Part shown: piece by piece, positions 20,398 to 36,068 of the stretch
Layout of the letters: the number at the start of each line of letters is the position of its first letter
How positions within the stretch are numbered: the first letter of the stretch is position 1
NCBI GenBank assembly: GCA_011523045.1
Contig: WTHR01000098.1
Location: 2,653-38,720 of the forward strand
DNA length: 36,068 nucleotides
Source of the DNA: Gammaproteobacteria bacterium
GTDB lineage: Bacteria; Pseudomonadota; Gammaproteobacteria; Arenicellales; UBA868
Direction of reading: 5' to 3'
Notes under the pieces: model-generated
What the model was told of the DNA's origin: nothing
The model's input: only the letters and a program-made list of their open reading frames with translations
Database searches by the model: none
Made by a program: the position numbers and the translations under genes

Positions 20398-21057
20398 TCA
20401 CTCGCGGCTTGACCGGTTGCAAACCCCTTTCTCCACTGCCATTACCGCTGCTTCAACCCGGGAATGCACTCCCAGCTTGCGCAGGATTGCCTTGACGTGC
20501 AGTTTGACCGTACCGTCCGAGATGTCCAAATGACGTGCAATGACTTTGTTGCTTTGGCCCTCAGAGAGATGGCAGAGAATCTCGTGCTCACGGGGCGTCA
20601 GGCTGCTGAAAGGCGCCAGATCATCTTTTCGCTCACGCCGTTCTCCGTGCCGCACTAGATCCGCCAAGACACTGGTCAACGCGGGCGCGACAACAATCTT
20701 CCCCGAAACAATCTCCTGAAGCGCGAGAACCAGCTCATCGGGTTCCATATCTTTCAGCAGATAACCCCGCGCGCCATTGCGCAGCGACTCGGACAGATCA
20801 CCCTCATCCGCGCTGGTGGTCAACATGACCACAGGGATCTCCAAACCCTGCTCCACCATATGACGGAGCACTGACAGTCCGCCCAGATCAGGCATGCGCA
20901 AATCCAACAGCACAACATCGGGCTTTAGCGTCTCGGCGAGACGAAGACCTTCTTCCCCTTCAGCTGCCGCGCCCACGACCTGCAGTCCACGACGCTCAAG
21001 CAGGCCCTGCAGCCCTACCCGGAAAAGCGCATGATCATCCACGATCAAGACTTTCAT
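20398..21057 (-). CDS. NarL/FixJ-family response regulator
   Basis: Receiver domain (VLIVDDHALFRVGL...VVLLDLRMPDLGG...) and a NarL-like HTH SLTPREHEILCHLSEGQSNKVIARHLDISDGTVKLHVKAILRKLGVHSRVEAAV. Confidence 0.93.
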   Translation of the reverse strand: MKVLIVDDHALFRVGLQGLLERRGLQVVGAAAEGEEGLRLAETLKPDVVLLDLRMPDLGGLSVLRHMVEQGLEIPVVMLTTSADEGDLSESLRNGARGYLLKDMEPDELVLALQEIVSGKIVVAPALTSVLADLVRHGERRERKDDLAPFSSLTPREHEILCHLSEGQSNKVIARHLDISDGTVKLHVKAILRKLGVHSRVEAAVMAVEKGVCNRSSRE

Positions 21058-22148
21058 TCAGTCCTCTCCCCCAAAGGTTTTCTACCGGCGGCTTCGTCCA
21101 CCGAACCCAGTTCTATCACGACCCGGGTGCCATCACCGGGTTCACTCTCAATGGTGAGTTCTGCTCCCACGGTCCCGGCCCGCTCTTGCATAATGGCAAG
21201 CCCAAAATGCCCGTCGCTGTCCTGATCATCAGGAGCAATGATCATACCGACTCCGTCGTCCTCAACAATAATACGAAGACGGCCTATGTTGTCATAACTT
21301 AGCAGAACCCGCACCATATTTGCCCGACTGTGCTTCCGCACGTTTGCGAGAGCTTCCTGAACAATCCGCAGAATCTGCGCTTCTTCTTCCTCGGTGAGTT
21401 CTGCGTCGTTCGCCTGATTCTGTAGCACCGTCTCTGTGCCTGTCTCCTTGCGCAGACGCGACAACAGCCGCCGAATACCTGGTATCAGTCCATGCCGACT
21501 AAGGGGAGCCCTGAAGTGCGCGATCAGCTCCCGCAGTTCGACGTTGGCTTCATCCACACTGCTCTCGATACGTTCCATTTCCTGCCAAATGGCAGATTCG
21601 CTGTCCTGGCGCAGCGTATCGTCCAAAACACGAATCTGGAATTTCAGACTGGCAAGTGTCTGTGCGAGCGAATCATGCAGTTCATTTGCCAATTGGGTGC
21701 GCTCATGAAGTCGCTCCTGCTGGGCCTGCAGCTCCCGCTCACGCTCTTCGGCCAACGCCTCCAGCCACTCTGACAACCGGTTAATGTCATCGGCCAGTTC
21801 CCCGATCTCACCGGTATCCGAGCGTGGCAATCGTGAGGAAAAATCCCCCTGTCGGATGCTGGAGGCCCAATCACGCAGAGCCAAGAGTGGGCCCAACAAC
21901 CACCTCTGCACGCCCAGGAGCATGGCAGCGAGACTGAGCAGCAGGATCGCCGTCGACGCCAAGAGCAGCCCTTGAATGAGTGCAGGATCCTCGCTTGATT
22001 GACCCAACATTACCGCCAGGACAACGCACAGAACGGATAACCCCAACACCCCTGCAGACCACCAGAAGAACCGTCTTGGCAGCAGAGTGTGCCAACGCCT
22101 CGGGTCAGAATGAGAGGGCGCCGTTGAGGGTTTTTGTGAATCAGTCAT
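21054..22148 (-). CDS. NarX/LiaS-type histidine kinase (HisKA_3), short periplasmic loop
   Basis: Two TM helices, HAMP, RTQLANELHDSLAQTLASLKFQI phosphoacceptor motif, VQEALANVRKHS N-box. ORF could start at 22178; MTDSQK at 22148 is equally plausible. Confidence 0.9.
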   Translation of the reverse strand: MTDSQKPSTAPSHSDPRRWHTLLPRRFFWWSAGVLGLSVLCVVLAVMLGQSSEDPALIQGLLLASTAILLLSLAAMLLGVQRWLLGPLLALRDWASSIRQGDFSSRLPRSDTGEIGELADDINRLSEWLEALAEERERELQAQQERLHERTQLANELHDSLAQTLASLKFQIRVLDDTLRQDSESAIWQEMERIESSVDEANVELRELIAHFRAPLSRHGLIPGIRRLLSRLRKETGTETVLQNQANDAELTEEEEAQILRIVQEALANVRKHSRANMVRVLLSYDNIGRLRIIVEDDGVGMIIAPDDQDSDGHFGLAIMQERAGTVGAELTIESEPGDGTRVVIELGSVDEAAGRKPLGERTE

Positions 22149-22274
22149 AGCAGGTAAGAGAACGCCTTGATCCGGCAATGATTAGCTGCTGGCACGAGCC
22201 AGGGCAAACCGGACGGGGCAGTGGACACGCTCTCGCATGACCGACAGTATAGGTTACCTGAGCGCCCCGACCTC

Positions 22275-22613
22275 CTACGGTTTTGGATCCGGGACCGCTT
22301 CAGGCGGGACAAAGTGGGGGTCGTTGGGATTCAAGAAAATAAACTGTGGGGCTTTTTCTTCTTCGGGCGTAACAAAATCAAGAATGGCGCCGCTCAGCAA
22401 TTCCGTACTCGTTGGTGCGATCAGGAGTTCTATCCCATACTGCTCGGAACGCGTGTCGTTATCGCCCGCTTCGTCAAATCCCATCGCGTAATCGATGGTT
22501 CCGTCTTCAAGACGTCTGGCAGCCACTCTAAGGGCCATACCCTGCATACCGCCCTCTTCTATTGACGCCCGGATCTGGTCCGCAGCCTGCTCTGTAATTC
22601 TTAACAGCATCAT
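22275..22613 (-). CDS. dsrR: DsrR, IscA-like (A-type scaffold-fold) protein
   Basis: MMLLRITEQAADQIRASIEEGGMQGMALRVAARRLEDGTIDYAMGFDEA; HesB/IscA fold without the typical CxC, next to dsrN. Confidence 0.87.
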   Translation of the reverse strand: MMLLRITEQAADQIRASIEEGGMQGMALRVAARRLEDGTIDYAMGFDEAGDNDTRSEQYGIELLIAPTSTELLSGAILDFVTPEEEKAPQFIFLNPNDPHFVPPEAVPDPKP

Positions 22614-22658: not shown

Positions 22659-24044
22659 TTAAGTTTTTTGTGCCCGTACAAAGTTAACGAAGGCATTTAC
22701 CCAGGGGTTTGCCGCGACGTGGCGCTGATGCGCGTAGGTCGCGAGCAGATTATGCATGTGAATACCGTCCCGGGCGCCATCCAGTCCGTGGCCGCGTTCT
22801 ACCGCATACGCCGTGGTTAGTGGCGAATCGATCTCCTCCAGAGAGGAGTAATGAAATTCATGAACGTTATATACGAGGCCTGCGGTCGCGCGGACATCCG
22901 GCCAAGGGTGATCAGGCGTGGCGCGAAAACGCATATAACCCCGCCCCACTGGCCGCTCCCACATTTTGGTATCCCCGGGAATCACCCCCACCATGGGAAG
23001 CTTTCTGTCCTGCCACGCAATCGATCGGCTGAGGTACATGAGTCCGCCGCACTCGGCGTAAGTGGGGCCGCCGTCTTCAATAAACGCCTTGATTTCTGCG
23101 CGCAGACGGGCATTGGCCGATAACGGCTCAAGGAAACACTCAGGAAAACCACCGCCAATAAAAAGCCCGTCCAGGAGCGGCAGGTTCTTGTCCTGCAGGG
23201 TGTCAAACGGGATCAAGTCCGCGCCTGTCTGCTCAAACGCGGCCAGATCATCCGGATAGTAGAAACCAAAAGCCCGATCACGAGCGATGCCGATCCTCAC
23301 AAGCCTATCTTTGCTCGAGGACAACGCTGACGGCATAGCGCTGGGCGTCGCTACAGGATCTTGGTGATCCGCTGTCAATGCCAGTACGGCATCAAGGTCG
23401 ACTCCTGCTTCCACCACATCAGCAATCCTGTCGATGCGAGCCATCGCATCCAGATCTTCGTTACCCGGAACAAGGCCCAGATGGCGCTCTTCAATGCCTA
23501 ATCCGGACGTACGCCCGATCGCCCCCAGTACCGGGAGGTCAGAATAACGCTCGATGGCGGCGCGCAGTTTGCTTTCCTGTCGAGGTCCTGCGACCCGATT
23601 CAGAATGACGCCGACAATCTGGACGTCCGGATCAAAACCGGTATACCCGGTGAGAAGCGGTGCGATACCCCTGGTGATGCCGGTGACATCGATAACAAGT
23701 ATCACCGGCAGACCCAATCTCACGGCAAGGGCGGCGTTGCTGTCACTGCCCTCAACATCAAGTCCATCAAAGAGTCCCTTGTTCCCCTCCACAACCGCGA
23801 CATCGGCATCCTGACGGCGCTCTTCAAAACAGGAATGAATCTCGTCATGATCCATCGTGAAGAAATCGAGATTCCAGCAAGGCCGGCCGCTGGCGCGGGC
23901 CAGCCAGGCGGGATCAATGTAGTCCGGTCCTTTTTTAAAGGCAGCCACCCGCATCCCGTGCCGGCGATACGCCGCACATAATCCACTGCTGACGAGCGTC
24001 TTGCCAGAAGACTTATGAGCAGCAGCAATAAAAAACTGGCTCAC
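22659..24044 (-). CDS. dsrN: DsrN, cobyrinic acid a,c-diamide synthase-like (siroheme amidation)
   Basis: AAAHKSSGKTLVSSGLCAAYRRHGMRVAAFKKGPDYIDPAWL; GATase motif YAECGGLMYLS. Confidence 0.92.
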   Translation of the reverse strand: MSQFFIAAAHKSSGKTLVSSGLCAAYRRHGMRVAAFKKGPDYIDPAWLARASGRPCWNLDFFTMDHDEIHSCFEERRQDADVAVVEGNKGLFDGLDVEGSDSNAALAVRLGLPVILVIDVTGITRGIAPLLTGYTGFDPDVQIVGVILNRVAGPRQESKLRAAIERYSDLPVLGAIGRTSGLGIEERHLGLVPGNEDLDAMARIDRIADVVEAGVDLDAVLALTADHQDPVATPSAMPSALSSSKDRLVRIGIARDRAFGFYYPDDLAAFEQTGADLIPFDTLQDKNLPLLDGLFIGGGFPECFLEPLSANARLRAEIKAFIEDGGPTYAECGGLMYLSRSIAWQDRKLPMVGVIPGDTKMWERPVGRGYMRFRATPDHPWPDVRATAGLVYNVHEFHYSSLEEIDSPLTTAYAVERGHGLDGARDGIHMHNLLATYAHQRHVAANPWVNAFVNFVRAQKT

Positions 24045-24097: not shown

Positions 24098-25288
24098 TCA
24101 TCCGGCCGGTTGCTTTACCGACCCTCGTGGAAGAAAGGGCAGTACTCTGACTGCTACTAAGGCAATCAGGGCCGCCAACCCAATACCACCAAGACCCAGG
24201 GCCAGTTCAGGGAGGGAAGGCGCATAGCCCGCGACAACACCGTCGTAGTACGTACTCTTCTCGATGTAACCCGGGAAGATATCCATCGGAAATGCCTGGC
24301 CGCCGATAATCAGGACATATAACTGGGCAAACGCGCCAAGCAAAACCAACAAAGACGCAACGACCGTCTGCGACACTCCCGCAAAGCGAGGAGTCAGCAG
24401 CAAAATGACCGGTATCACGGTTCCCAACAGACCTTGTCCGACCCAGAACAACCATGGGTAGATGCCGCCCTCTACCAACAGAAACCGCTCAACCCCGGTA
24501 TGACCCGCAGCATACAAACGCGTAAGGTGGTCGATCGCCACGAAAAATGCCACCGCAATAACGAAATAAGCCAACAGGGTCCGAAGCCGTGTCAGGATTT
24601 CATGGTTGACCGGAGCCTGGCCCAAACGAGACACCAACATCATCGCCAATAGCGTGACGGCTGTCCCAAAGGACAGCGACATGGCGATGAACATCGGGGC
24701 AAGCACCGCACTGTCAAATGCCTCCCGTGCAACCAGAAAGCCAAAAATCGAACCCGTTCCTGTGGTCAGCACCAAACGCCAGATGAAAGAGACCGTGCCG
24801 GCGGGCCGCGTAAAACGGTTCATCCTCGGCTCAAACATCATCCAGAGGTACACCGCGACCACGATCAGAAAACCCGTATATAAAAATATATTCCAGGCAA
24901 AGATCGATTCGAAGTTGTAATACGTCATGGCAATAATCAACCGGTCCGGGCGCCCCAGATCCAGGACCAGTACCGTCAGCCCACCCACCAGCAAGGCCAT
25001 GGCCAACAATCCGGAAATCCTGGACAACGGCTTATAGAGCGACTGGCCGAACACCGACGAAATCGATGCCGCATTCAGCGCACCCGAGGCTGAAACAATC
25101 AGAAAGACGGCGAAAACATGGGGCAACCCCCACACCACCCGATTATTCATGCCGGTGACATAGTGGCCCTCGACCTCCATATGATGTGCCCCGGCCAATC
25201 CCAAAATTGCCAGGGCCGCGGCAATACCTGCCGTGAGCCAGAACCCGCTGCTGGGACGGAGTATCTGGAATGTGACGCTGCTGGTCAT
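24098..25288 (-). CDS. dsrP: DsrP, NrfD-family integral membrane subunit
   Basis: Polytopic NrfD-like protein directly downstream of dsrO. Confidence 0.9.
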   Translation of the reverse strand: MTSSVTFQILRPSSGFWLTAGIAAALAILGLAGAHHMEVEGHYVTGMNNRVVWGLPHVFAVFLIVSASGALNAASISSVFGQSLYKPLSRISGLLAMALLVGGLTVLVLDLGRPDRLIIAMTYYNFESIFAWNIFLYTGFLIVVAVYLWMMFEPRMNRFTRPAGTVSFIWRLVLTTGTGSIFGFLVAREAFDSAVLAPMFIAMSLSFGTAVTLLAMMLVSRLGQAPVNHEILTRLRTLLAYFVIAVAFFVAIDHLTRLYAAGHTGVERFLLVEGGIYPWLFWVGQGLLGTVIPVILLLTPRFAGVSQTVVASLLVLLGAFAQLYVLIIGGQAFPMDIFPGYIEKSTYYDGVVAGYAPSLPELALGLGGIGLAALIALVAVRVLPFLPRGSVKQPAG

Positions 25289-25317
25289 TTGATTATTGGG
25301 CTTGCGCGCAGTTTGGG

Positions 25318-26070
25318 TCAGACGCCCGAATAACGCACCGCGGTGTTCAGTCTGAGGTCAGAGCGCAATTCGTCGGTTTCCTCTCGCGCAAGCGCACTGG
25401 CGAGAGGTCCTTGCGCATCGTTGAGGTCGCCAAAGACCAGCGCATGGTGTCCTGCGTCGGCGCAGGCTTCCACACAAGCAGGGGCTCGGTTTTCGTCAAC
25501 CCGGTGCACACATAACGTGCAACTCTCTACCGTTCCTTTGCCTCTGGGTGAGTGAGTTTTCTGTCCGCTAAGGTCCTCATGAATAAACGACCTTGCGTGA
25601 AAGGGGCAGGCCATCATGCAGTAACGACAGCCGATGCAGATATGCTTGTCCACGAGGACGATCCCATCTTCGCGACGGAAGGACGCACCCGTCGGACAGA
25701 CATCCACGCAGGGGGGTTCCTCACAGTGCTGACACATTAGCGGCAAAGAAACTTCCCGGCCGGTGGTCTCATCTTTAAGATCCACTTTGCGGATCCATTG
25801 GGCATCCGTCTCGGGACGCCCCATCCCTGTCAGCCCATGCTCATCATTGCACGCCGAGACACAGGCGTCGCATCCGCTCGCACAGCGGCTGGTATCGACC
25901 CACAAGCCCCAACGATGTGCATCGGTGACCGGTTCGTCATCCGAGGCGGCGACCGCAAGCTCGGCAAGCCGCACGCCCGGCGCCAGTGCCAGCAATGCGA
26001 CGCCAGCACCCGCCTGGGTGAAAAACCGCCGGCGTGTTGGCGTGGAAGATGGTGGTTCGGACTGTGACAT
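25318..26070 (-). CDS. dsrO: DsrO, periplasmic ferredoxin-like Fe-S protein with Tat signal
   Basis: TRRRFFTQAGAGVALLALAPG Tat signal; several 4Fe-4S motifs (CQHCEEPPCVDVCPTGA, CIGCRYCMMACPFHAR). Start assigned to MSQSEPP; the ORF extends to 26124. Confidence 0.92.
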   Translation of the reverse strand: MSQSEPPSSTPTRRRFFTQAGAGVALLALAPGVRLAELAVAASDDEPVTDAHRWGLWVDTSRCASGCDACVSACNDEHGLTGMGRPETDAQWIRKVDLKDETTGREVSLPLMCQHCEEPPCVDVCPTGASFRREDGIVLVDKHICIGCRYCMMACPFHARSFIHEDLSGQKTHSPRGKGTVESCTLCVHRVDENRAPACVEACADAGHHALVFGDLNDAQGPLASALAREETDELRSDLRLNTAVRYSGV

Positions 26071-26078
26071 CGAAGGCC

Positions 26079-26489
26079 TCAAGGGGACTGGCTCATTTTC
26101 ACCGCGGGGACTGTGGCGTGACAAGTGAAGCAGTCAATCTTCACCGCCGCGTAGGTATGGCAGGTCTGACAAAACTCCCCTTCCGCATTGATCGGAACAA
26201 ACTGACCGCTCGCATTCTTGGTTGCATGACAGTCGATACATCCGGCGAGGCTGTGCTTGATCGTGCGAATGCCCTCGTGCACGGTCTTGTCACGATCATG
26301 CTTCATGAAATCAAAATGATCACGGCGCATGATTTCGACGGGCTCAACGCACTGCTCACCCTGGGCCGCGGGAATCTTGGGTGTCGCCACATCGCTGTAC
26401 CCAGCCACCGGAGCCCACAAAGTCACGCAGCCGAGGATCAGACTTACGATCCCAAATTGACACAGCTGATTGCCCCCAATGCGCGCCAT
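26079..26489 (-). CDS. dsrJ: DsrJ, triheme cytochrome c
   Basis: Three CxxCH motifs (CIDCH, CQTCH, CFTCH). Start reassigned to MARIGG (26489) rather than the longer ORF overlapping dsrL. Confidence 0.9.
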   Translation of the reverse strand: MARIGGNQLCQFGIVSLILGCVTLWAPVAGYSDVATPKIPAAQGEQCVEPVEIMRRDHFDFMKHDRDKTVHEGIRTIKHSLAGCIDCHATKNASGQFVPINAEGEFCQTCHTYAAVKIDCFTCHATVPAVKMSQSP

Positions 26490-26502
26490 GGCGATCTGAG
26501 AA

Positions 26503-28455
26503 TTACTCCCCCATCCCCATGTCGATGTAACCGGTCGGACAGACGTCGGCACAAATATGGCAACCGATGCACTTCGAATAGTCGGTATCCACGTACCGCC
26601 CGGTCGTTGACTGATCTTTCTTGACTCGAAAGACCGCATCCTGGGGACAAAAAATAACGCAGTTGTCGCACTCAAAACACATGCCGCAACTCATGCAGCG
26701 TTCTGCCTCGGCGCGGGCCTCTTCTTCGCCCAGGCCGTGGTGGCGTTCCTCAAAATGACCGAGCACTTCCTCCGCATCCGGGACGGTGGTGTCACGAAGA
26801 TTGCGGGGGGTCTCTTCGAAATGCCCCAGAAACAATTCGTCAGAGGGAATGATTTCGTGCCGCGACCGATCCTCATAGTTGTGAACCGCGAAGGATGCGT
26901 CTGACGTCCCCCAGGTGGCGGCATGATCATACTCGTCCGGAGCGAGGGATTGCTCGTTCAATTTTGCTAACAGATCAAAATGATGCACGTCCACTTTAGG
27001 TCGGCGCGCAGGATCTTCACCCCTCAGATAATGATCAATACTCTGAGCCGCGATAGCGGCCTGTCCAATAGCCGTCGTCAAGAGGTGTGGACGGACGATA
27101 TCTCCCGCAACAAAGTGACCGCGGCGATCAGGCACCTGAAAAAACCGGTCTGCCTCGATCAACTGCCGTTCGTTGCCCATTTCCTCAATCCCGCTAAGGT
27201 CTCCTGCCTGACCGATGGCCGATACGATCAGATCCGCCTCGACCTCAAACTCTGTGCCCGCAATCGGTGTGGGAATGCCTTTTTCGTCAATTTCACACTT
27301 TGCCAACCGCAGTCCCGTCGCGCGGCCGTCCTCACCTCGATTCAGGGCCACGGGCATCACCCCGTTCAGGATAGTCACGCCCTCAGTCAGCGCATCGTCC
27401 ACCTCTTCTTCAGTCGCTGTCATATCGGTGCGCTCAAAAAGCGCGGTCAGCGTCACGTGAGCGCCCTCTCGTGCGGCGACCATGGCAGAGTCATGTGCCG
27501 TGTAACCCCCAATGACCTCTTCAGGTCTGTCCTTTTCGTTGATCTGGTCGATCTTGCCAAGACGACGGGCCACCGAGACCACATCGATAGAGGTGTCTCC
27601 GCCGCCAATACAAACCACCTTTTCAGCGGTGACTTTCATAGACTCCTTGTTGAAGGCATCAAGGAATGCCACGCCGGACACACAGTTGGGCGTCTCTTCC
27701 CAACCCTCGACCGGCAACCCACGGCCGCGCTGACACCCCACTGCCCACAACAACGCGTCATACTCAGCTTCGAGCTGCTCTATTGAGATATCGGTGCCGA
27801 CGCGTACGCCGGTGCGGATCTCAATATCACCCATTTCTATAATGCGCCCGATCTCGCGATCCAGTCTGTCGCGTGGTGTACGATATCCGGGAATCCCATA
27901 GCGAAACATACCGCCAAGGTAATCCTGGGACTCAAACACTGTCGAGGCGTATCCCAAACGCCGCAATTGGTAAGCGCCTGCCAACCCTGCCGGACCGCCC
28001 CCAATGATGGCGATCTTCTTGCTGCCCACAGGGGGTGGTGTGTCAAAGCGGTATCCTTCGTCAAAAGCGGAGTCACCGATGTACTGCTCGACCGAATTGA
28101 TTCCGACAAAATCATCGACATTATTGCGGTTGCAGCCGCTCTCACACGGGGCGGGGCACACCCGGCCCATCATTGCCGGAAACGGATTGGCATCAGTCGC
28201 CCGGCGGAAGGCGTACTCTTGCCAGGTCATCCCCTCGGGGGGTTTTTCCATACCGCGCACAATTTGGAGCCATCCCCGGATGTCTTCGCCGGAAGGGCAG
28301 CTTCCCTGACAAGGCGGGGTACGGTGCACATAAGTCGGGCACTTATGTGAGTTATCTTCATTGAAGATCAGGTCTTTAAAATCATCCCACTGATGCTCAC
28401 CGTCGGCAAACTTGCGGAAAGTCAGTTTCTGCGTGTGTTCCTCTGAGGCTGCCAT
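26503..28455 (-). CDS. dsrL: DsrL, NAD(P)H:acceptor oxidoreductase-like iron-sulfur flavoprotein
   Basis: GltD-like fold (KKIAIIGGGPAGLAGAYQLRRLGY, CIGGGDTSIDVVSVARRLG) and C-terminal ferredoxin clusters (CMSCGMCFECDNCVIFCP, CIGCHICADVCPTG). Confidence 0.94.
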   Translation of the reverse strand: MAASEEHTQKLTFRKFADGEHQWDDFKDLIFNEDNSHKCPTYVHRTPPCQGSCPSGEDIRGWLQIVRGMEKPPEGMTWQEYAFRRATDANPFPAMMGRVCPAPCESGCNRNNVDDFVGINSVEQYIGDSAFDEGYRFDTPPPVGSKKIAIIGGGPAGLAGAYQLRRLGYASTVFESQDYLGGMFRYGIPGYRTPRDRLDREIGRIIEMGDIEIRTGVRVGTDISIEQLEAEYDALLWAVGCQRGRGLPVEGWEETPNCVSGVAFLDAFNKESMKVTAEKVVCIGGGDTSIDVVSVARRLGKIDQINEKDRPEEVIGGYTAHDSAMVAAREGAHVTLTALFERTDMTATEEEVDDALTEGVTILNGVMPVALNRGEDGRATGLRLAKCEIDEKGIPTPIAGTEFEVEADLIVSAIGQAGDLSGIEEMGNERQLIEADRFFQVPDRRGHFVAGDIVRPHLLTTAIGQAAIAAQSIDHYLRGEDPARRPKVDVHHFDLLAKLNEQSLAPDEYDHAATWGTSDASFAVHNYEDRSRHEIIPSDELFLGHFEETPRNLRDTTVPDAEEVLGHFEERHHGLGEEEARAEAERCMSCGMCFECDNCVIFCPQDAVFRVKKDQSTTGRYVDTDYSKCIGCHICADVCPTGYIDMGMGE

Positions 28456-28519
28456 AGCCCGATTCCTCTCGTCTGTTGCTCTCTAATGCTTCCTGACCTG
28501 CCCGCGCGATACGACCGGG

Positions 28520-30016
28520 TCAGTGCTCGTTACCAAATACCAGCGCGTCCCCCACCAACTGGTGTACGCTGATGATCATATCCATGCCCATTCCGTACTG
28601 CGGCAACACCTTGGTGAACTGGCTCTTGCAGATGGCGCAGATCGCCGCCATGTGCGTAACGCCGTGTTGCTCAATTACCTGCCGCAGCGCCTGCGCGCGA
28701 GGCAAAGCGCCCTTCACCCTAAGCTCAATCAGGTCATCCGTCAGCAATCCGCCGCCGCCGCCACAGCAAAAGGTGTGCTCATGGATCGTGTCAGGCGCCA
28801 TGTCCACGAAATGTGTACAGGCAGCACGAATCAAGTCACGGGGTATCGTGAACTGCCCGCCCGGGGTATCGCCCAAGCGTGATCCTCGGGAGACGTTGCA
28901 TGAATCATGGAAAGTGACGACCTTGTCATCGTTCGCCTCGGGGTCGAATTTCAATACCCCGCGCTGGTTAAGGTCGTGCGTGAACTCACAGATATGCTGC
29001 GGTACGGGATAAGCCGGATCAAGGAAATCAAAAGGCCCGATGAGCGTATTCCAGAAACTGTAGGCCACGCGCCATGCGTGACCGCACTCTCCTACGATAA
29101 TCCGCTTGACGCCAAGATCGAGAGCAGCCTGGCGGATGCGCTGCGCGACCTTCTGCATATTCTCGTAATTGCCGATAAAGATGCCGAAGTTGGCCGCCTC
29201 GGAAGCGTACGAGCTCAGTGTCCAACTGATGCCCGCCTGATGGAACACCTTGGCATAACCGATCAGGCCGTCAACGTGAGGCTCAGCAAAAAAATCAGCT
29301 GAGGGGGTGACCAGCAGGACGTCGGCGCCCTTCTGGTCCAACGGGAGTTTCACCGGGACGTTGATGTCTTCTTCAATCTCTTCTTCAAGGCCCTCGAGCG
29401 TATCGGCAAGCGCCGGCTCCGGCAGGCCGAGATTGTTTCCGATGGTATGAACCTTGCCGATGATCTCGTTCGAATACTTCTGGCCTACTCCGATTGAGGC
29501 GAGAATCTCCCGACCGGCCATGGTGATTTCTGCAGTATCAATACCGTACGGGCAATACACCGAGCAACGCCGGCACTCCGAGCATTGGTGGTAGTAGCTG
29601 TACCAGTCATTAATGACTTCTTCTGTCAGCTCAACCGCGCCGACCAGTTTCGGAAACCATTTGCCGGCCGTCGTAAAGTAGCGCCGGTACACTTTGCGCA
29701 TGAGATCCTGGCGCGCCACCGGCATGTTCTTGGGATCTCCCGTGCCAAGGTAATAGTGGCACTTGTCGGTACACGCGCCGCACTTGACGCAGGCATCCAT
29801 AAACACCTGCAAAGACCGGTAGCGCCCGAGCAGTTCATCCATCTTGCTAAGCGCAACGTCCTGCCAGTTCTCCACCAGTTCTCCCGGAAAGCCAAGGGGT
29901 GACTGATGCTCCGGTTTGGCAACAAAAGGCCGACTATGGGACATCGCGTCCGGCTGCACGGCGGGCGTGCTCAGCCAGTCTTCAAGAGCCGGTGTGTCGA
30001 ATTCGGGTTTAGCCAT
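28520..30016 (-). CDS. dsrK: DsrK, HdrD-like iron-sulfur protein
   Basis: CVKCGACTDKCHYY and CSECRRCSVYCPYG 4Fe-4S motifs; CCG domains (HTFCCGGGGGLL). Confidence 0.94.
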   Translation of the reverse strand: MAKPEFDTPALEDWLSTPAVQPDAMSHSRPFVAKPEHQSPLGFPGELVENWQDVALSKMDELLGRYRSLQVFMDACVKCGACTDKCHYYLGTGDPKNMPVARQDLMRKVYRRYFTTAGKWFPKLVGAVELTEEVINDWYSYYHQCSECRRCSVYCPYGIDTAEITMAGREILASIGVGQKYSNEIIGKVHTIGNNLGLPEPALADTLEGLEEEIEEDINVPVKLPLDQKGADVLLVTPSADFFAEPHVDGLIGYAKVFHQAGISWTLSSYASEAANFGIFIGNYENMQKVAQRIRQAALDLGVKRIIVGECGHAWRVAYSFWNTLIGPFDFLDPAYPVPQHICEFTHDLNQRGVLKFDPEANDDKVVTFHDSCNVSRGSRLGDTPGGQFTIPRDLIRAACTHFVDMAPDTIHEHTFCCGGGGGLLTDDLIELRVKGALPRAQALRQVIEQHGVTHMAAICAICKSQFTKVLPQYGMGMDMIISVHQLVGDALVFGNEH

Positions 30017-30031
30017 GATGTAAAAGCGGCA

Positions 30032-30934
30032 CTAGGCTCCGTCTGTGCCGCCGCTGCGCTCAGGCAACTCTTTGGCCCACGGCGCAACGTGACGGTGCTC
30101 GCGCGGGTTATCGCGCATATTGCGCGTCGGGCTGAAAAACACCCCCGGCGCGTGCAGCAACTTGCTGAAGGGAAAAATCAGCATCAGGATAATTACCAGC
30201 GAAAGGTGGACAAGCAGTGGCGCATCCGCAGGCAGAGGCTGCCAGTCAAACGATACCAGTCCCAGCGAGAACGCCTTGAGCGAGACGATGTCGGTATGCG
30301 CACTGTGTTTCATCACGAGTCCTGAGCCTGCGATCGCCAAAAGCAACGCCAGCATCAGGTGATCCGAAGGTGCACTGATATAGCGAATGCGGTCCACCAG
30401 GACACGGCGCGCCCATAACCCAGCCAGGCCGGCGAACATCGCAAAACTGGCATAAGAGCCCACCCACTGAATCATGACCACCCAAGACCAGACCGGCTGG
30501 GTGAAATATCGAAAATGTTGCGCGAGCACGATCAGCATACCGAAATGGAAGAGCCATCCGAAAAGCCAACTCCACTTGCTGCCTTTAAACAGGCTCTCGA
30601 AAAAAACGACTTCGCGGAACATCCGGGCAACAACACCGGCATGGGTCGTGGGTGCCGGCGTGGTGGGTATGACCAGCGGAGCAGGCGTGCGTGCATAGCG
30701 CGCCACACGGGCGCCGACCCCCACAAGAAATACGGCGGTCGCGAAGTAAAACAGCCCGGCGAAGATAGTGCCTAGTAACAAGAGAATCCTGCCTGGAAGA
30801 ACCGCCCCAGCCAGCACTGGCCGGCGGCGATTCTTTGCTTGGTGCTCATGCTCAGGCGCCGACTGAGCCGGCGCAGATGCTCTGTCCTGAAGAAGACTGT
30901 CAGACGCAACCCGTGGGCTTGGGCAGACCGGCAT
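30032..30934 (-). CDS. dsrM: DsrM, membrane cytochrome b (NarI-like); N-terminus uncertain
   Basis: NarI-like multi-TM protein between dsrC and dsrK. The 5' end of the ORF overlaps dsrC by 35 nt; the true start may be downstream (e.g. an in-frame GTG at VLAGAVLPG). Confidence 0.88.
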   Translation of the reverse strand: MPVCPSPRVASDSLLQDRASAPAQSAPEHEHQAKNRRRPVLAGAVLPGRILLLLGTIFAGLFYFATAVFLVGVGARVARYARTPAPLVIPTTPAPTTHAGVVARMFREVVFFESLFKGSKWSWLFGWLFHFGMLIVLAQHFRYFTQPVWSWVVMIQWVGSYASFAMFAGLAGLWARRVLVDRIRYISAPSDHLMLALLLAIAGSGLVMKHSAHTDIVSLKAFSLGLVSFDWQPLPADAPLLVHLSLVIILMLIFPFSKLLHAPGVFFSPTRNMRDNPREHRHVAPWAKELPERSGGTDGA

Positions 30935-31232
30935 ATTTACATGCCTGCTTTGCGGGCCCGTACGGGAAGAGTTCGTACAGGTACTTGCTGTTGCCCTTGT
31001 CTTTGCCGAGTTTCTTCCCGATGGCCTTGGTCAACACCCGCACCGCCGGAGCGATCTGGTATTCGTCATAGTATTCGCGAAGAAAGTTGATGACTTCCCA
31101 GTGGTTCTCGCTGAGATCACAGTCATCTTCTTTAGCCATGTAGGCAGCGACGTCGCTGTCCCATTCACCGAGGTTGGCGAGATATCCTTCCTCATCCGTT
31201 TCATAGGTCTTGCCGTTCAATTCAAATGCCAT
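30900..31232 (-). CDS. dsrC: DsrC sulfur carrier
   Basis: C-terminal ACKYAGLPKPTGCV with two Cys separated by 10 residues; FLREYYDEYQIAPAVRVLTKAI. Confidence 0.97.
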   Translation of the reverse strand: MAFELNGKTYETDEEGYLANLGEWDSDVAAYMAKEDDCDLSENHWEVINFLREYYDEYQIAPAVRVLTKAIGKKLGKDKGNSKYLYELFPYGPAKQACKYAGLPKPTGCV

Positions 31233-31271
31233 TTTCGGCCTCCTGTTCCATAAAAAACAAAAACAATTAAC

Positions 31272-31574
31272 TCAAAGCCAGTTCTGGATCTTGTCGTTGG
31301 TACAAGCCAGGTCGACAAACCCGTCGTAGCCCACTACCTCGATGCCCGGTATGAGTCTGTCGCCAGACAATCCCCGGGCTTTAAGATCTGGTTCCAGTGC
31401 ATACACACGCACTGCCTCAAGCGCTTCGGCCACCAGCGACGCATGCGCACTTCCCGCAAGCGCGCCGTACACTCCATCTTCAATCAGGAGCACATCGCTG
31501 CCGCTGCGCGCCAGCGACAGACAGGTCTTGAGGCTCGAAGACTCAAACGGAGATTTGTTAACGGTGTGCAGCAT
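31272..31574 (-). CDS. dsrH: DsrH
   Basis: MLHTVNKSPFESSSLKTCLSLARSGSDVLLIEDGVYGAL; DsrH/TusB family. Confidence 0.94.
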   Translation of the reverse strand: MLHTVNKSPFESSSLKTCLSLARSGSDVLLIEDGVYGALAGSAHASLVAEALEAVRVYALEPDLKARGLSGDRLIPGIEVVGYDGFVDLACTNDKIQNWL

Positions 31575-31600
31575 GATATCGGTGGTCGTGTGATGGGGCG

Positions 31601-32008
31601 TTAAAAATTCAGCAGAATATCCTGCTCTTCGATCAGATCAGAAAGCTGGGCCCGATCGACGATATGAATCGACGGCTTTTCCGCCCAGTCGTCATCTTCA
31701 TCTTCCCAGGTCAGCGGCATCAGATCGTCTTCTGTCAGTCCGCGCTCTTCGAGCGATTCACGCTCGACGTAAAGCCGATTCACTTCATAGTCGCCGAGAG
31801 CCCGGTAGGCAGGCGAGAAATTCTTCATTCCCGTATCCGCAGTATCCTGATCCTGCTTGAGCTGAAACACCCCATCGCCCACAAAGGCCATGCAAACATC
31901 CTGCTCAAACGCCGCGCCGATCAACACCACTTCCAGCCCCTCGACGGCATACACCGTTCCGCAGGGCGCATGGCGGTTGATGTACATAAATTTTTTCGCG
32001 TTGCTCAC
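31601..32008 (-). CDS. dsrF: DsrF
   Basis: Located between dsrE and dsrH; DsrF/TusC-like GTVYAVEGLEVVLIGAAFEQDVCMAFVGDGVFQLK. Confidence 0.93.
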   Translation of the reverse strand: MSNAKKFMYINRHAPCGTVYAVEGLEVVLIGAAFEQDVCMAFVGDGVFQLKQDQDTADTGMKNFSPAYRALGDYEVNRLYVERESLEERGLTEDDLMPLTWEDEDDDWAEKPSIHIVDRAQLSDLIEEQDILLNF

Positions 32009-32018
32009 CAGTTGGCCC

Positions 32019-32411
32019 TCAGTCGCCGAACACCAGAAGCCGGTCGGACTCGATACCCGCCTCGATCAACTGCCCCAATCCCGAGATGCGGAATCCCGGC
32101 GCAATATTGTCGCCGTCCTTGCTGTTGCGCTTCGCTTCATCAGGATCAACGATCCCGCGCCGCTGCGCCGCTGCCACACAGACCACCAAATCAAGATCAT
32201 GTTCGCTCGCCAGTTCACTCCAGCGATTGACGATGTGCCGGTCATCCTGGGGGGGTGTGGTGAGCCGCGTGCCGTTGTTCACCCCGTCATGATAAAAGAA
32301 GACTCGAAAAATCTCGTGACCGGCCGACAGGGCTGCGCGAATAAACTGATAGGCGCTGTCCGAGGCCTGGTGGGTATACGGCCCTTCGTTCACCATGACG
32401 GAAAACTTCAT
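32019..32411 (-). CDS. dsrE: DsrE
   Basis: MKFSVMVNEGPYTHQASDSAYQFIRAALSAGHEIFRVFFYHDGV; conserved Cys in LDLVVCVAAAQRRG. Confidence 0.95.
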   Translation of the reverse strand: MKFSVMVNEGPYTHQASDSAYQFIRAALSAGHEIFRVFFYHDGVNNGTRLTTPPQDDRHIVNRWSELASEHDLDLVVCVAAAQRRGIVDPDEAKRNSKDGDNIAPGFRISGLGQLIEAGIESDRLLVFGD

Positions 32412-32420
32412 CTGGATTGC

Positions 32421-33494
32421 CTAAAACCGGATATGCGTTGAGGCGTTGAGGCTCTTGCGCGCGCCACGCCAGTTATCAATATGGAACTTGGTAAACGGCA
32501 GTCCCGTAATCTCGAAAAAGCGCGGCCAGCCGATACGGTCGATCCAGTCATTGATTCGCTCCCAATCACGAGCGTCATCTTTATAGGACTGCAGAATCCG
32601 CTTGACGATCGCCGTGGCTTCCGGCCAGCGCGGCGGGTTGTTTGGAACCCCTGAGGCGACCAGCTTCTGGAAACTTGGCTTGCTGCGCGCGTTGGAATGA
32701 TTGCCGCCAACCCAGATCGCGAGTTTGGTGTGCTCAGGATCGTTGATCTGCATCGGCGGGCAAGGCGGATAGCACGCGCCGCAGCAGATACATTTTTTCT
32801 CATCAACCTCAAGGGTGGGCTTGCCGTTTACCTGTGCCGGCCGGATGGCTGCCACCGGGCAGCGCGCTACCACAGACGGGCGCTCACACACATTTGCCAC
32901 GAGATCGTGGTTAATCTTGGGCGGCTTGGTGTGCTGCACATTAATCGCAATATCTCCCTGACCGCCGCAATTGATCTGGCAGCACGAGGTCGTGATGTGC
33001 ACCCGGTTCGGCATATTGCAGTTTTTGAACTCATCGATCAGTTCATCCATCATTGCCTTGACCACGCCTGACGCGTCAGTCCCCGGGATATCGCAATGCA
33101 GCCATCCCTGGGTATGCGAAATCATGGCAACCGAGTTAGCGGTTCCACCGACCACAAACCCGGCATCTTCCAAAGCATCGATGAGCGGCTCGACCTTGGC
33201 TTCTTCAGCCACCATGTATTCGATATTGCTGCGGATAGTGAACCGGACGTGCCCATCGGCAAATTCATCGCCAATGTCGCAAAGCTTGCGAAGGGTAAAC
33301 ACATCCAGGATGCGCTGGGTACCCGCTTTGACAGTCCAGACTTCATCGCCGCTGTCGGCAACATGGCGCAGGACGCCCGGTCGGGGGTGATCATGCCAGC
33401 GCCACTGGCCAAAATTCTTGACCATCAGTGGATGCATGTACTGGAATCCGTCGGGACAACCCGACTCGATTGGCTGTCGCATGTCCTTAGCCAT
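32421..33494 (-). CDS. dsrB: Dissimilatory sulfite reductase beta subunit (reverse type)
   Basis: Siroheme/Fe-S region VHITTSCCQINCGGQGDIAI; ferredoxin motif CICCGACYPPCPPMQI. Confidence 0.97.
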   Translation of the reverse strand: MAKDMRQPIESGCPDGFQYMHPLMVKNFGQWRWHDHPRPGVLRHVADSGDEVWTVKAGTQRILDVFTLRKLCDIGDEFADGHVRFTIRSNIEYMVAEEAKVEPLIDALEDAGFVVGGTANSVAMISHTQGWLHCDIPGTDASGVVKAMMDELIDEFKNCNMPNRVHITTSCCQINCGGQGDIAINVQHTKPPKINHDLVANVCERPSVVARCPVAAIRPAQVNGKPTLEVDEKKCICCGACYPPCPPMQINDPEHTKLAIWVGGNHSNARSKPSFQKLVASGVPNNPPRWPEATAIVKRILQSYKDDARDWERINDWIDRIGWPRFFEITGLPFTKFHIDNWRGARKSLNASTHIRF

Positions 33495-33577: not shown

Positions 33578-34846
33578 TCATCCTGCTGCCGACTGCGCGC
33601 TTTCCGCTTGCCGCTCGAACCACTTCACTGCTTCCTCATCCCATCCATCCATCCGTACGTAGGAAGACTGCCTGGGATCAGCGATCATGTGCGGGTCGAC
33701 CTCGATGCCAATGCCCTCAAGGAAGTTCACCAGACCGATGCGCTCAATCATTTCGCCGCAGCGCTCATGCTCGAGGCCATTCTCGGCCCAGAAGTCGATT
33801 GTGTTTTCTGCAATCTCAGTGATGGTCTCGTAGTCCTCTTCGGTCTCGAGCTTCATGAACGGCACGATTACCGTGCCCATCAGATCACCAATTTTGAGGG
33901 TCCGTTTACCCCCCATGAGAATCGTTACCCCGGTGTCTTCTCCCGGGGACAGGGCTTTAGGCACCACATTGAGACAGTGCATGCAGCGCACGCAGTTGCG
34001 GTTGTCGATCTCGAGGGAATCGTCATCCTTCAGACTCATGCATCGAGTCGGACAACGAGTGATGATGTTGTCGATAGTGTGCTGGCGACCTTTCTCAGCG
34101 ACGTAGTCTTTCCAGGCCTGCTGGTCTACCTTCATGTCGTCCCGCCAGGTACCGATCACCGCCATATCTGCGCGTTCGATTGAGTTCATGCAGTCGTTCG
34201 GGCATCCCGAGACCTTGAATTTGAACTTATAGGGAAGCGCCGGGCGATGCACATCGTCTGTGAAGTTGTTGACCAGGGTCCGGTGAATCTTGTGCTCATT
34301 GGCGCAGGACTGTTCACACCGTGCGCCGCCGACACATGACATCGCGGTGCGCACGCAGGGTCCGGCACCACCGAGGTCAAACCCATAGTCGTTGATCTCA
34401 TCGAAAAAGTGCTGCGTGTTCTCGGTCGTTGCGCCGATAAACATGATGTTGCCGGTTTGCCCATGAAAGGTCACAAGACCGGAGCCCCACTTTTCCCAAC
34501 TGTCTGCCAACTGGCGCAGCATATCGGTGCTGTAATGGTTGCCCGCCGGGGGCTGAACCCGCAGGGTGTGGAATTCTTTGGATTCCGGGAACTGCTGACC
34601 TACCTCTGAAAAGCGCGGGATAATCCCGCCGCCGTAACCGTAAACACTGACGGTGCCACCCTTCCAATAACCCTTGCGCGTTTCGTAGGAGTGCTCCAGT
34701 TGTCCGAGCAGGTCATTGGCGACGCCGTTGATACGCTCTGTCGGATGCTCGTCCCGAAGACGTTTGATACCCGAAATAAAACTCGGCCAGGGTCCATTCT
34801 CCAGCTCATCGAGCATGGGGGTGTCATGTTGCTTGTTGTCAGCCAT
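33578..34846 (-). CDS. dsrA: Dissimilatory sulfite reductase alpha subunit (reverse type)
   Basis: KKGYWKGGTVSVYGYGGGIIPR-like start, CVGGARCEQSCANE, FKVSGCPNDCMNSIERADMAVIG. Confidence 0.97.
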   Translation of the reverse strand: MADNKQHDTPMLDELENGPWPSFISGIKRLRDEHPTERINGVANDLLGQLEHSYETRKGYWKGGTVSVYGYGGGIIPRFSEVGQQFPESKEFHTLRVQPPAGNHYSTDMLRQLADSWEKWGSGLVTFHGQTGNIMFIGATTENTQHFFDEINDYGFDLGGAGPCVRTAMSCVGGARCEQSCANEHKIHRTLVNNFTDDVHRPALPYKFKFKVSGCPNDCMNSIERADMAVIGTWRDDMKVDQQAWKDYVAEKGRQHTIDNIITRCPTRCMSLKDDDSLEIDNRNCVRCMHCLNVVPKALSPGEDTGVTILMGGKRTLKIGDLMGTVIVPFMKLETEEDYETITEIAENTIDFWAENGLEHERCGEMIERIGLVNFLEGIGIEVDPHMIADPRQSSYVRMDGWDEEAVKWFERQAESAQSAAG

Positions 34847-35006: not shown

Positions 35007-35012
35007 ATTCTA
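35007..35012 (-). promoter_or_regulatory. Putative -10 element of dsrA promoter (TAGAAT on minus strand)
   Basis: TAGAAT with no good -35 hexamer; the CCCC-N2-GGGG palindrome lies at the -35 side. Confidence 0.3.
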
Positions 35013-35033: not shown

Positions 35034-35049
35034 ATTCCCCGGGGGGTAT
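35034..35049. promoter_or_regulatory. Putative operator 1: ATTCCCC-GG-GGGGTAT imperfect palindrome
   Basis: 7-2-7 inverted repeat upstream of dsrA. Confidence 0.5.
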
Positions 35050-35068
35050 GCGGTCAAAATCGCTGTTT

Positions 35069-35084
35069 TATCCCCTTGGGGATA
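35069..35084. promoter_or_regulatory. Putative operator 2: TATCCCC-TT-GGGGATA palindrome with perfect arms
   Basis: 7-2-7 inverted repeat, 35 bp centre to centre from operator 1. Confidence 0.55.
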
Positions 35085-35324
35085 GGCTGATTTTTGCAAC
35101 GCACAAAATTCACTTGGGGCGAGTGGGGTCTTTTTTTCGAACAAGTTCATGAAATCAGGGACTTAAAACAAAACGCCGCCCAAGAAGAAGAAAATCCTCC
35201 GAAATCTGTCAACCGCGCGGACGAAAATTCGACCGGAGATCAACCTTTTGGGGGAGTTTTCCGGCCGGGCCTGCGCTCTAGAATCAGGCTCCTCGGTTTA
35301 GTCCATTCCATCCGTTTATTCAAA

Positions 35325-36068
35325 ATGTATACAGGCAGTACCGCTTTGGCCCTTTTCGAAACCCGGGTAACACCGGTGCGGATCGACATGCCCAATCACT
35401 TCGGGGAAAGACTTAGCCAATATCAGCGAGCCATCGAGAACCTCGTTGTCGACATTAATGATCCGTACCAAATCTCAACTATCGAGCGCGCGGCGCTTGC
35501 CAGACGGATCGACAAGACCAACATGGTGATCTACCGCTTCGGGCCCGATTATGGGCAAGACCGAAGCGCGGTGACGGGGTTGACAGCTCAGCTCGGCCTG
35601 GGTGACCCGGATCAGAATTTGTATGCGGATGCTGATGGTCTTAGCTCGATTCAGGTGCATCCCGAAGGCGTCCGGCAGCGCTACATTCCCTACACCGACA
35701 AGAAACTCAACTGGCACACCGACGGTTACTATCACCGTCCGGACCGGATCATCCGGACAATGCTGTTGCATTGTGTTCGCCCGGCAATGGAGGGAGGTGC
35801 GCTGGAAGCGATTGATCACGAGATCATCTACGGACTGCTTCAGGAGCGTGACCCACGCCTCGCGGAAGCACTTTCACAACCGGATGCGATGACGATTCCT
35901 GAAAACGGGCTGGAGGGCCCGGCTTTTCGCGCCGAATGTTCAGGCCCGGTCTTTTTCGAGGAGTCCGGAACACTTCGGATGCGTTATACCGCCCGAAAGC
36001 ATAACGTTGTCTGGAAAGCGAATACCCTTACACGGGAGGCTGTCGGCGTCCTGGATGAGGTCCTGAAC
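35325..36068 (+). CDS. TauD/TfdA-like Fe(II)/2-oxoglutarate-dependent dioxygenase family protein, 3' truncated by window edge
   Basis: Open frame of 248 codons from ATG 35325 with no stop. Contains WHTDGYYHRPDRIIRTMLLHCVRPAMEGGALEAIDHE (HxD motif) and SGTLRMRYTARKHNVVWK. Missing from the ORF track because it has no stop in the window. Confidence 0.75.
   Translation, partial: MYTGSTALALFETRVTPVRIDMPNHFGERLSQYQRAIENLVVDINDPYQISTIERAALARRIDKTNMVIYRFGPDYGQDRSAVTGLTAQLGLGDPDQNLYADADGLSSIQVHPEGVRQRYIPYTDKKLNWHTDGYYHRPDRIIRTMLLHCVRPAMEGGALEAIDHEIIYGLLQERDPRLAEALSQPDAMTIPENGLEGPAFRAECSGPVFFEESGTLRMRYTARKHNVVWKANTLTREAVGVLDEVLN

Follow-up and report, generated by a model that had tools for sequence, protein, structure and literature searches.

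A conserved palindromic element upstream of dsrA in sulfur-oxidizing Gammaproteobacteria and a linked NarL-type response regulator as its likely binding protein

A palindromic motif recurs before the dsr genes of most sulfur-oxidizing Gammaproteobacteria examined, and it very probably marks the binding sites of a NarL-type response regulator that the dsr cluster encodes at its 3' end together with a NarX-like kinase and that would act as the activator of the cluster. This candidate points to the missing switch of the reverse-Dsr pathway, a main route of oxidation, in purple sulfur bacteria, sulfur oxidizers of marine habitats and many symbionts, for sulfur that is stored or lies in the cytoplasm; no transcriptional regulator of the pathway was identified in the open literature searched. 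The window, i.e. the whole 36,068-nt stretch analysed, contains the following features.

20398..21057, minus strand: NarL-type response regulator, the proposed palindrome-binding protein (PF00072, 2e-28; PF00196, 4e-21)
21054..22178, minus strand: NarX/NarQ-like sensor histidine kinase (two transmembrane stretches, HAMP, HisKA_3)
22275..22613, minus strand: dsrR-like gene for an IscA-type protein (weak PF01521 match; 39% identity to a relative's dsrR-like protein)
22659..24044, minus strand: dsrN, cobyrinate a,c-diamide synthase-like (PF07685, PF01656)
24098..30934, minus strand: dsrM, dsrK and dsrL-like, dsrJ-like, dsrO-like and dsrP-like genes (DsrK NF045796 above cut-off, DsrM NF038037 below cut-off, the others by Pfam domains)
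30900..32411, minus strand: dsrE, dsrF, dsrH and dsrC (PF02635, TIGR03010, TIGR03011, PF04358)
32421..33494, minus strand: dsrB (TIGR02066 above cut-off)
33578..34846, minus strand: dsrA, dissimilatory sulfite reductase alpha subunit (TIGR02064 at 632.6 bits, cut-off 392.85)
35007..35012, minus strand: inferred dsrA -10 hexamer TAGAAT, 64.5 bases from the distal centre
35034..35049, no strand: proximal palindrome, ATACCCC-CC-GGGGAAT in the dsrA direction, centre 35041.5, about -41.5
35069..35084, no strand: distal 7-2-7 palindrome, TATCCCC-AA-GGGGATA in the dsrA direction, centre 35076.5, at about -76.5 relative to the inferred start
35325..36068, plus strand: TauD-like gene, truncated by the window end (PF02668)

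The twin palindromes, ATTCCCCGGGGGGTAT (35034-35049) and TATCCCCTTGGGGATA (35069-35084), lie exactly where a preliminary description of this DNA had placed them and their centres, in the divergent region common to the TauD-like gene and dsrA, the latter 188-238 bp downstream of the pair. The window holds three copies of CCCCNNGGGG (0.94 expected), and WWWCCCCNNGGGGWWW has three matches in the 2.72 Mb genome, two of them here at 35 bp spacing, while its reversed control has none; the third match falls within a NUDIX-like gene and was put aside. When the window is aligned with ten relatives (two of which, L007 and L052, are masked in part), the palindromes and the -10 hexamer come out among the best-kept blocks of an otherwise drifting intergenic region.

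Conservation of the palindrome before orthologous dsrA genes was evaluated in two locus sets that share some organisms. The first set comprises 79 loci of a single genome collection, nearly all of which have the motif: the top-scoring CTATCCCNNNNGGGATAG match before dsrA mostly reaches 10-14 of 14, and matches to the reversed pattern about 7-11. A weight matrix derived from this set was applied at a threshold of 9.5 to 112 dsrA loci from whole genomes across the class; upstream of dsrA, 93/112 loci reach the threshold and 0/112 do so with the reversed matrix. The dsrA-upstream site is in most loci the top match within up to 20 kb. The consensus can be written as CTATCYC-N-WW-N-GRGATAG and includes the distal palindrome; its conserved core is TATCYC-N4-GRGATA, of which the C4/G4 core described previously is a special case. 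The distal palindrome is strongly conserved and the proximal one, the window counterpart of a second conserved element in other dsrA promoters, is looser, a distinction that the preliminary description had missed. Its suggestion that the pair is the operator of an uncharacterized dsr regulator gains support from this class-wide conservation and from fixed spacing to the second element and the -10. Twenty viral contigs with dsrA were also scanned, and the motif precedes the gene in none of them; thus the motif is a host-side feature. Five loci from related families (L197, L200, L194, L199 and L218) have GGGAGGG or GGGGGGG in place of GGGATAG as the right half of the distal site and keep the regulator; this may be an altered half-site or a different dimer arrangement.

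Anchoring 146 non-redundant promoters on the distal palindrome, in a gap-free comparison, revealed just two further stretches whose column information clearly exceeds the maximum among 300 shifted controls (0.112 bits), with nearly all other columns at background. One is a C-tract/G-tract element at +25 to +44, centred at about +34.5 (34-35 bp downstream of the palindrome); the other is a TANAAT-like hexamer that falls in +62 to +70, 64.5 bp downstream of the palindrome. TANNNT occurs at offsets 63.5-65.5 in 73% of these promoters and in 5% elsewhere. This makes the distal site the strong one of the pair and the proximal site the weaker. In the window the hexamer is TAGAAT, already proposed as the dsrA -10; it lies 64.5 and 29.5 bases from the distal and proximal centres, at the conserved spacing. 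With a start placed about seven bases past it, the earlier site positions of about -41.5 and -76.5 were reproduced. The -35 had been called poor, and a search of the region found no canonical sigma-70 -35/-10 pair.

The TauD-like gene (Fe/2-oxoglutarate oxygenase family) is itself a conserved divergent neighbour of dsrA, in 70/107 loci across the class, and possibly shares the regulatory region. Its side of the region (35240-35284, plus strand) has its own TAGAAT at 35279-35284, and about 29.5 bases upstream of that hexamer is an AACCTTTTGGGNGAGTT block, conserved in close relatives, that resembles the proximal dsr element. The TauD-like gene may be co-regulated with dsr.

The column profile of the 146 sites consists of two inverted heptamers, with TA first, C-rich and separated by a 2-bp spacer, which is the form of a 7-2-7 operator; by this resemblance the palindromes are probably a NarL-type operator. 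7-2-7 sites have been co-crystallised with the NarL output domain, and the engineered site used for binding is TACCCCTAAAGGGGTA (PMC4549865), compared with TATCCCCAAGGGGATA in the window.

A suitable protein is encoded in the window by the last gene of the kinase-regulator pair, which follows dsrN and the dsrR-like gene on the same strand. In about 50 of the 113 loci fetched, an ortholog of the regulator (53-71% identity) comes after the dsr cluster; the gene order is dsrN-dsrR-HK-RR, often with a rhodanese gene next. A pair lying outside the fetched dsr locus was almost always found elsewhere in the same genome. Within 6 kb of the pair and on the same strand, dsrN is a neighbour in 55/70 loci and a rhodanese gene in 45/70. 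The rhodanese-like gene, close downstream of the pair in those 45 loci (including L259 and L261) and absent from the window, is a possible functional partner.

The regulator combines a receiver domain with a GerE (LuxR-type) HTH, as in NarL/FixJ-type response regulators. Receiver residues D7, D8, D52, T80 and K102 (phospho-acceptor Asp, acidic pair, Thr and Lys) are nearly invariant among about 70 orthologs, and nearly all have the recognition helix TVKLHVK, which in E. coli NarL is TVKVHVK. The NCBIfam equivalog for NarL, NF007935, scores 229.9 bits, under its cut-off of 250, and a tree, in which some branches are long, puts E. coli NarL together with 10 other rows in a group of their own (99/99); 'NarL-type regulator' is therefore a better name than NarL. 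The window's genome has no other close NarL-type regulator, the next match being at 32% identity. Four regulators in the Granulosicoccaceae (L295-L298) read TVKLHVR instead of TVKLHVK; of the corresponding genomes (sites in L026, L027, L029 and L043), three have TATTCC sites and one TATCCC, a base-residue covariation that is suggestive, coming from one lineage only.

Motif and regulator occur together. Among 105 dsrA-bearing genomes, 88 have both, 11 the regulator alone, none the motif alone and 6 neither (Fisher p = 8e-6, a value that overstates the support since related genomes are not independent; it is fairer to count the three families of loss). The six genomes without regulator belong to families f144, f133 and f34, and the motif is missing in all six. 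This joint loss, in one of the families accompanied by genomes of about 1 Mb, suggests where dsr control has been abandoned or replaced. The regulator ortholog was found in 0/23 genomes lacking a dsrA gene, and among 399 genomes drawn across the phylum the sole ortholog is that of the window's own genome, with two other genomes reaching 47-48% identity. The agreement has exceptions. No motif is recognisable before dsrA in 11/99 regulator-bearing genomes; a partly blind prediction that loci without the motif would lack the regulator was true for L063 and false for L076; and four further loci (L008, L019, L078 and L084), whose records are of unknown completeness, show a fair motif and no regulator match. 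Taken with gene neighbourhood and the recognition helix, the co-occurrence singles out the NarL-type regulator as the likely binding protein; the preliminary description had brought this protein up just for use in binding assays.

By this account, dimers of the phosphorylated regulator would occupy the strong distal site at -76.5 and the weaker proximal site at -41.5; the proximal dimer would replace the missing -35 box and recruit RNA polymerase to the TAGAAT -10, and dsrABEFHCMKLJOPN(R) would be switched on. One feature of the geometry counts against it: the two centres are 35 bp, or about 3.3 helical turns, apart, so that the dimers would sit on different faces of the helix.

Other explanations of the palindromes were weighed. 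They might act as RNA, in a hairpin or terminator, or be chance inverted repeats, and a terminator-like match does overlap the distal site on the plus strand; against this, the inferred dsrA start is downstream of both sites, the sequence itself is conserved in 146 promoters and an Rfam search gave no match, which leaves the idea scarcely credible. A sulfur- or copper-sensing repressor of the CsoR/CstR type might bind here, since operators of the CsoR family carry C-tract/G-tract palindromes too. A CsoR-family protein is reported to govern sulfur oxidation in Thermus (PMC10318464). We give this explanation almost no weight, for the conserved core is TATCYC-N4-GRGATA instead of C4/G4, and a PF02583 search of the window's genome (90.5% complete) found no such protein. 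Nor does DsrC seem at all a likely ligand. Grimm et al. are said to have suggested in 2010 that it may be a DNA-binding regulator in Allochromatium vinosum, dsrC is in the operon, and one exact site away from dsr precedes a TusE/DsrC-family gene (L231); as an essential part of the pathway, however, DsrC should also occur in the six dsr genomes with neither motif nor regulator, while the motif tracks the NarL-type regulator.

The most serious competitor, still an unlikely one, keeps the same protein and reverses or redirects its action: the unphosphorylated or signal-free form could silence dsr, or the distal site could mainly serve the divergent TauD-like gene. NarL, a dual regulator, is a repressor at frdA, where its sites are near the start (PMC4549865), and the frequency of the TauD-like neighbour would fit the second version. 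Both elements, however, lie upstream of the -10 at activator distances where there is no -35, and it is from this geometry that we infer activation over repression; the motif is also kept in loci without a TauD-like gene, e.g. L137, L145, L207, L222 and L225.

Activation of dsr by the NarL-type regulator would bring positive feedback, since the cluster also contains, further downstream and in the same direction, the genes of the kinase and the regulator, which are presumably co-transcribed with it. No strong autoregulatory site was found before the kinase gene in 20 loci fetched around the pair or in the window; the feedback would therefore have to run through the dsr operon.

The catalytic half of the window kinase is NarQ/NarX-like, and NarX and NarQ models match only its C-terminal half, with scores far under cut-off. 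Its sequence reads as two transmembrane stretches with a short loop between them, and the nitrate P-box is absent; with practically no periplasmic domain, a periplasmic nitrate signal is unlikely. Most orthologs have a region that we call GAF-like from inspection of the sequence, with a conserved CxC and a third cysteine. This region is missing from the window kinase and those of four close relatives (348-375 residues), yet the lineage has kept regulator and operator. That the sensor region is not conserved across orthologs counts against our explanation. Tentatively, and with nearly as much belief as doubt, we read the pair as a NarX-NarL-like system that has lost nitrate sensing and become a dedicated, class-wide reverse-Dsr switch, its kinase reading a sulfur or redox signal in the cytoplasm; the GAF-like region, with its conserved CLCG...C cysteine cluster, perhaps does the sensing in most lineages. 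The Allochromatium vinosum genome has annotated NarX/NarL (Alvin_1057/1058) and no obvious nitrate reduction genes (PMC3368242), and we propose that this pair is a putative form of the present system. If that reading is true, 'NarXL' annotations in sulfur oxidizers without nitrate reduction are the present system; more generally, a 'NarL' annotation in the genome of a sulfur oxidizer need not imply nitrate sensing.

A search of 80 genomes for exact TATCCCN4GGGATA gave 34 places, of which 25 precede dsrA; the reversed control gave 2. One of the nine off-dsr sites has a plausible target: in genome G311 (L231:1501-1516) an exact palindrome precedes a TusE/DsrC-family gene located outside the dsr cluster, making this gene a possible second target of the regulator. 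The other eight are near varied genes and may be chance, so a wider regulon was set aside. In the open literature we found no NarL-type regulator or this palindrome described at dsr promoters, although Grimm et al. 2010 or Dahl et al. 2005 may describe a palindrome. Beyond the preliminary description, the analysis adds the likely identity of the regulator, a conserved three-part promoter and the class-wide distribution. Operator and linked two-component system form a testable candidate regulator in cultured Thiocapsa, Halochromatium and probably Allochromatium, and the motif is a DNA signature by which dsr regulation may be predicted in uncultured organisms.

Among the closest known systems is E. 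coli NarX-NarL, which likewise pairs a HisKA_3 kinase with a NarL/FixJ-type regulator and shares the helix TVK[LV]HVK. Its operators (napF, yeaR and the engineered narG -89 site) are also 16-bp inverted heptamers with a 2-bp spacer, TACCCCT-AA-AGGGGTA compared with TATCCCC-AA-GGGGATA in the window, and at napF and yeaR a site likewise lies near -42 to -45. They differ in that heptamer position 3 is C for NarL and T in most dsr sites, that the target is nitrate respiration there and dsr here, and that the window kinase lacks the periplasmic nitrate-binding domain of NarX. NreBC of Bacillus licheniformis is another NarL-type two-component system tied to sulfur oxidation genes; it is sulfide-responsive and boosts sqr/pdo, and phosphorylation increases its affinity for DNA (PMC9918477), but it belongs to the Firmicutes, has a PAS-type kinase, targets sqr/pdo and involves no dsr genes. 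sHdrR and SoxR of Hyphomicrobium denitrificans (PMC12423496, PMC10451225) are, like the candidate described here, local regulators of sulfur-oxidation genes, but these are ArsR-type, sulfane-sulfur-responsive one-component repressors of sHdr and Sox genes, from an unrelated protein family.
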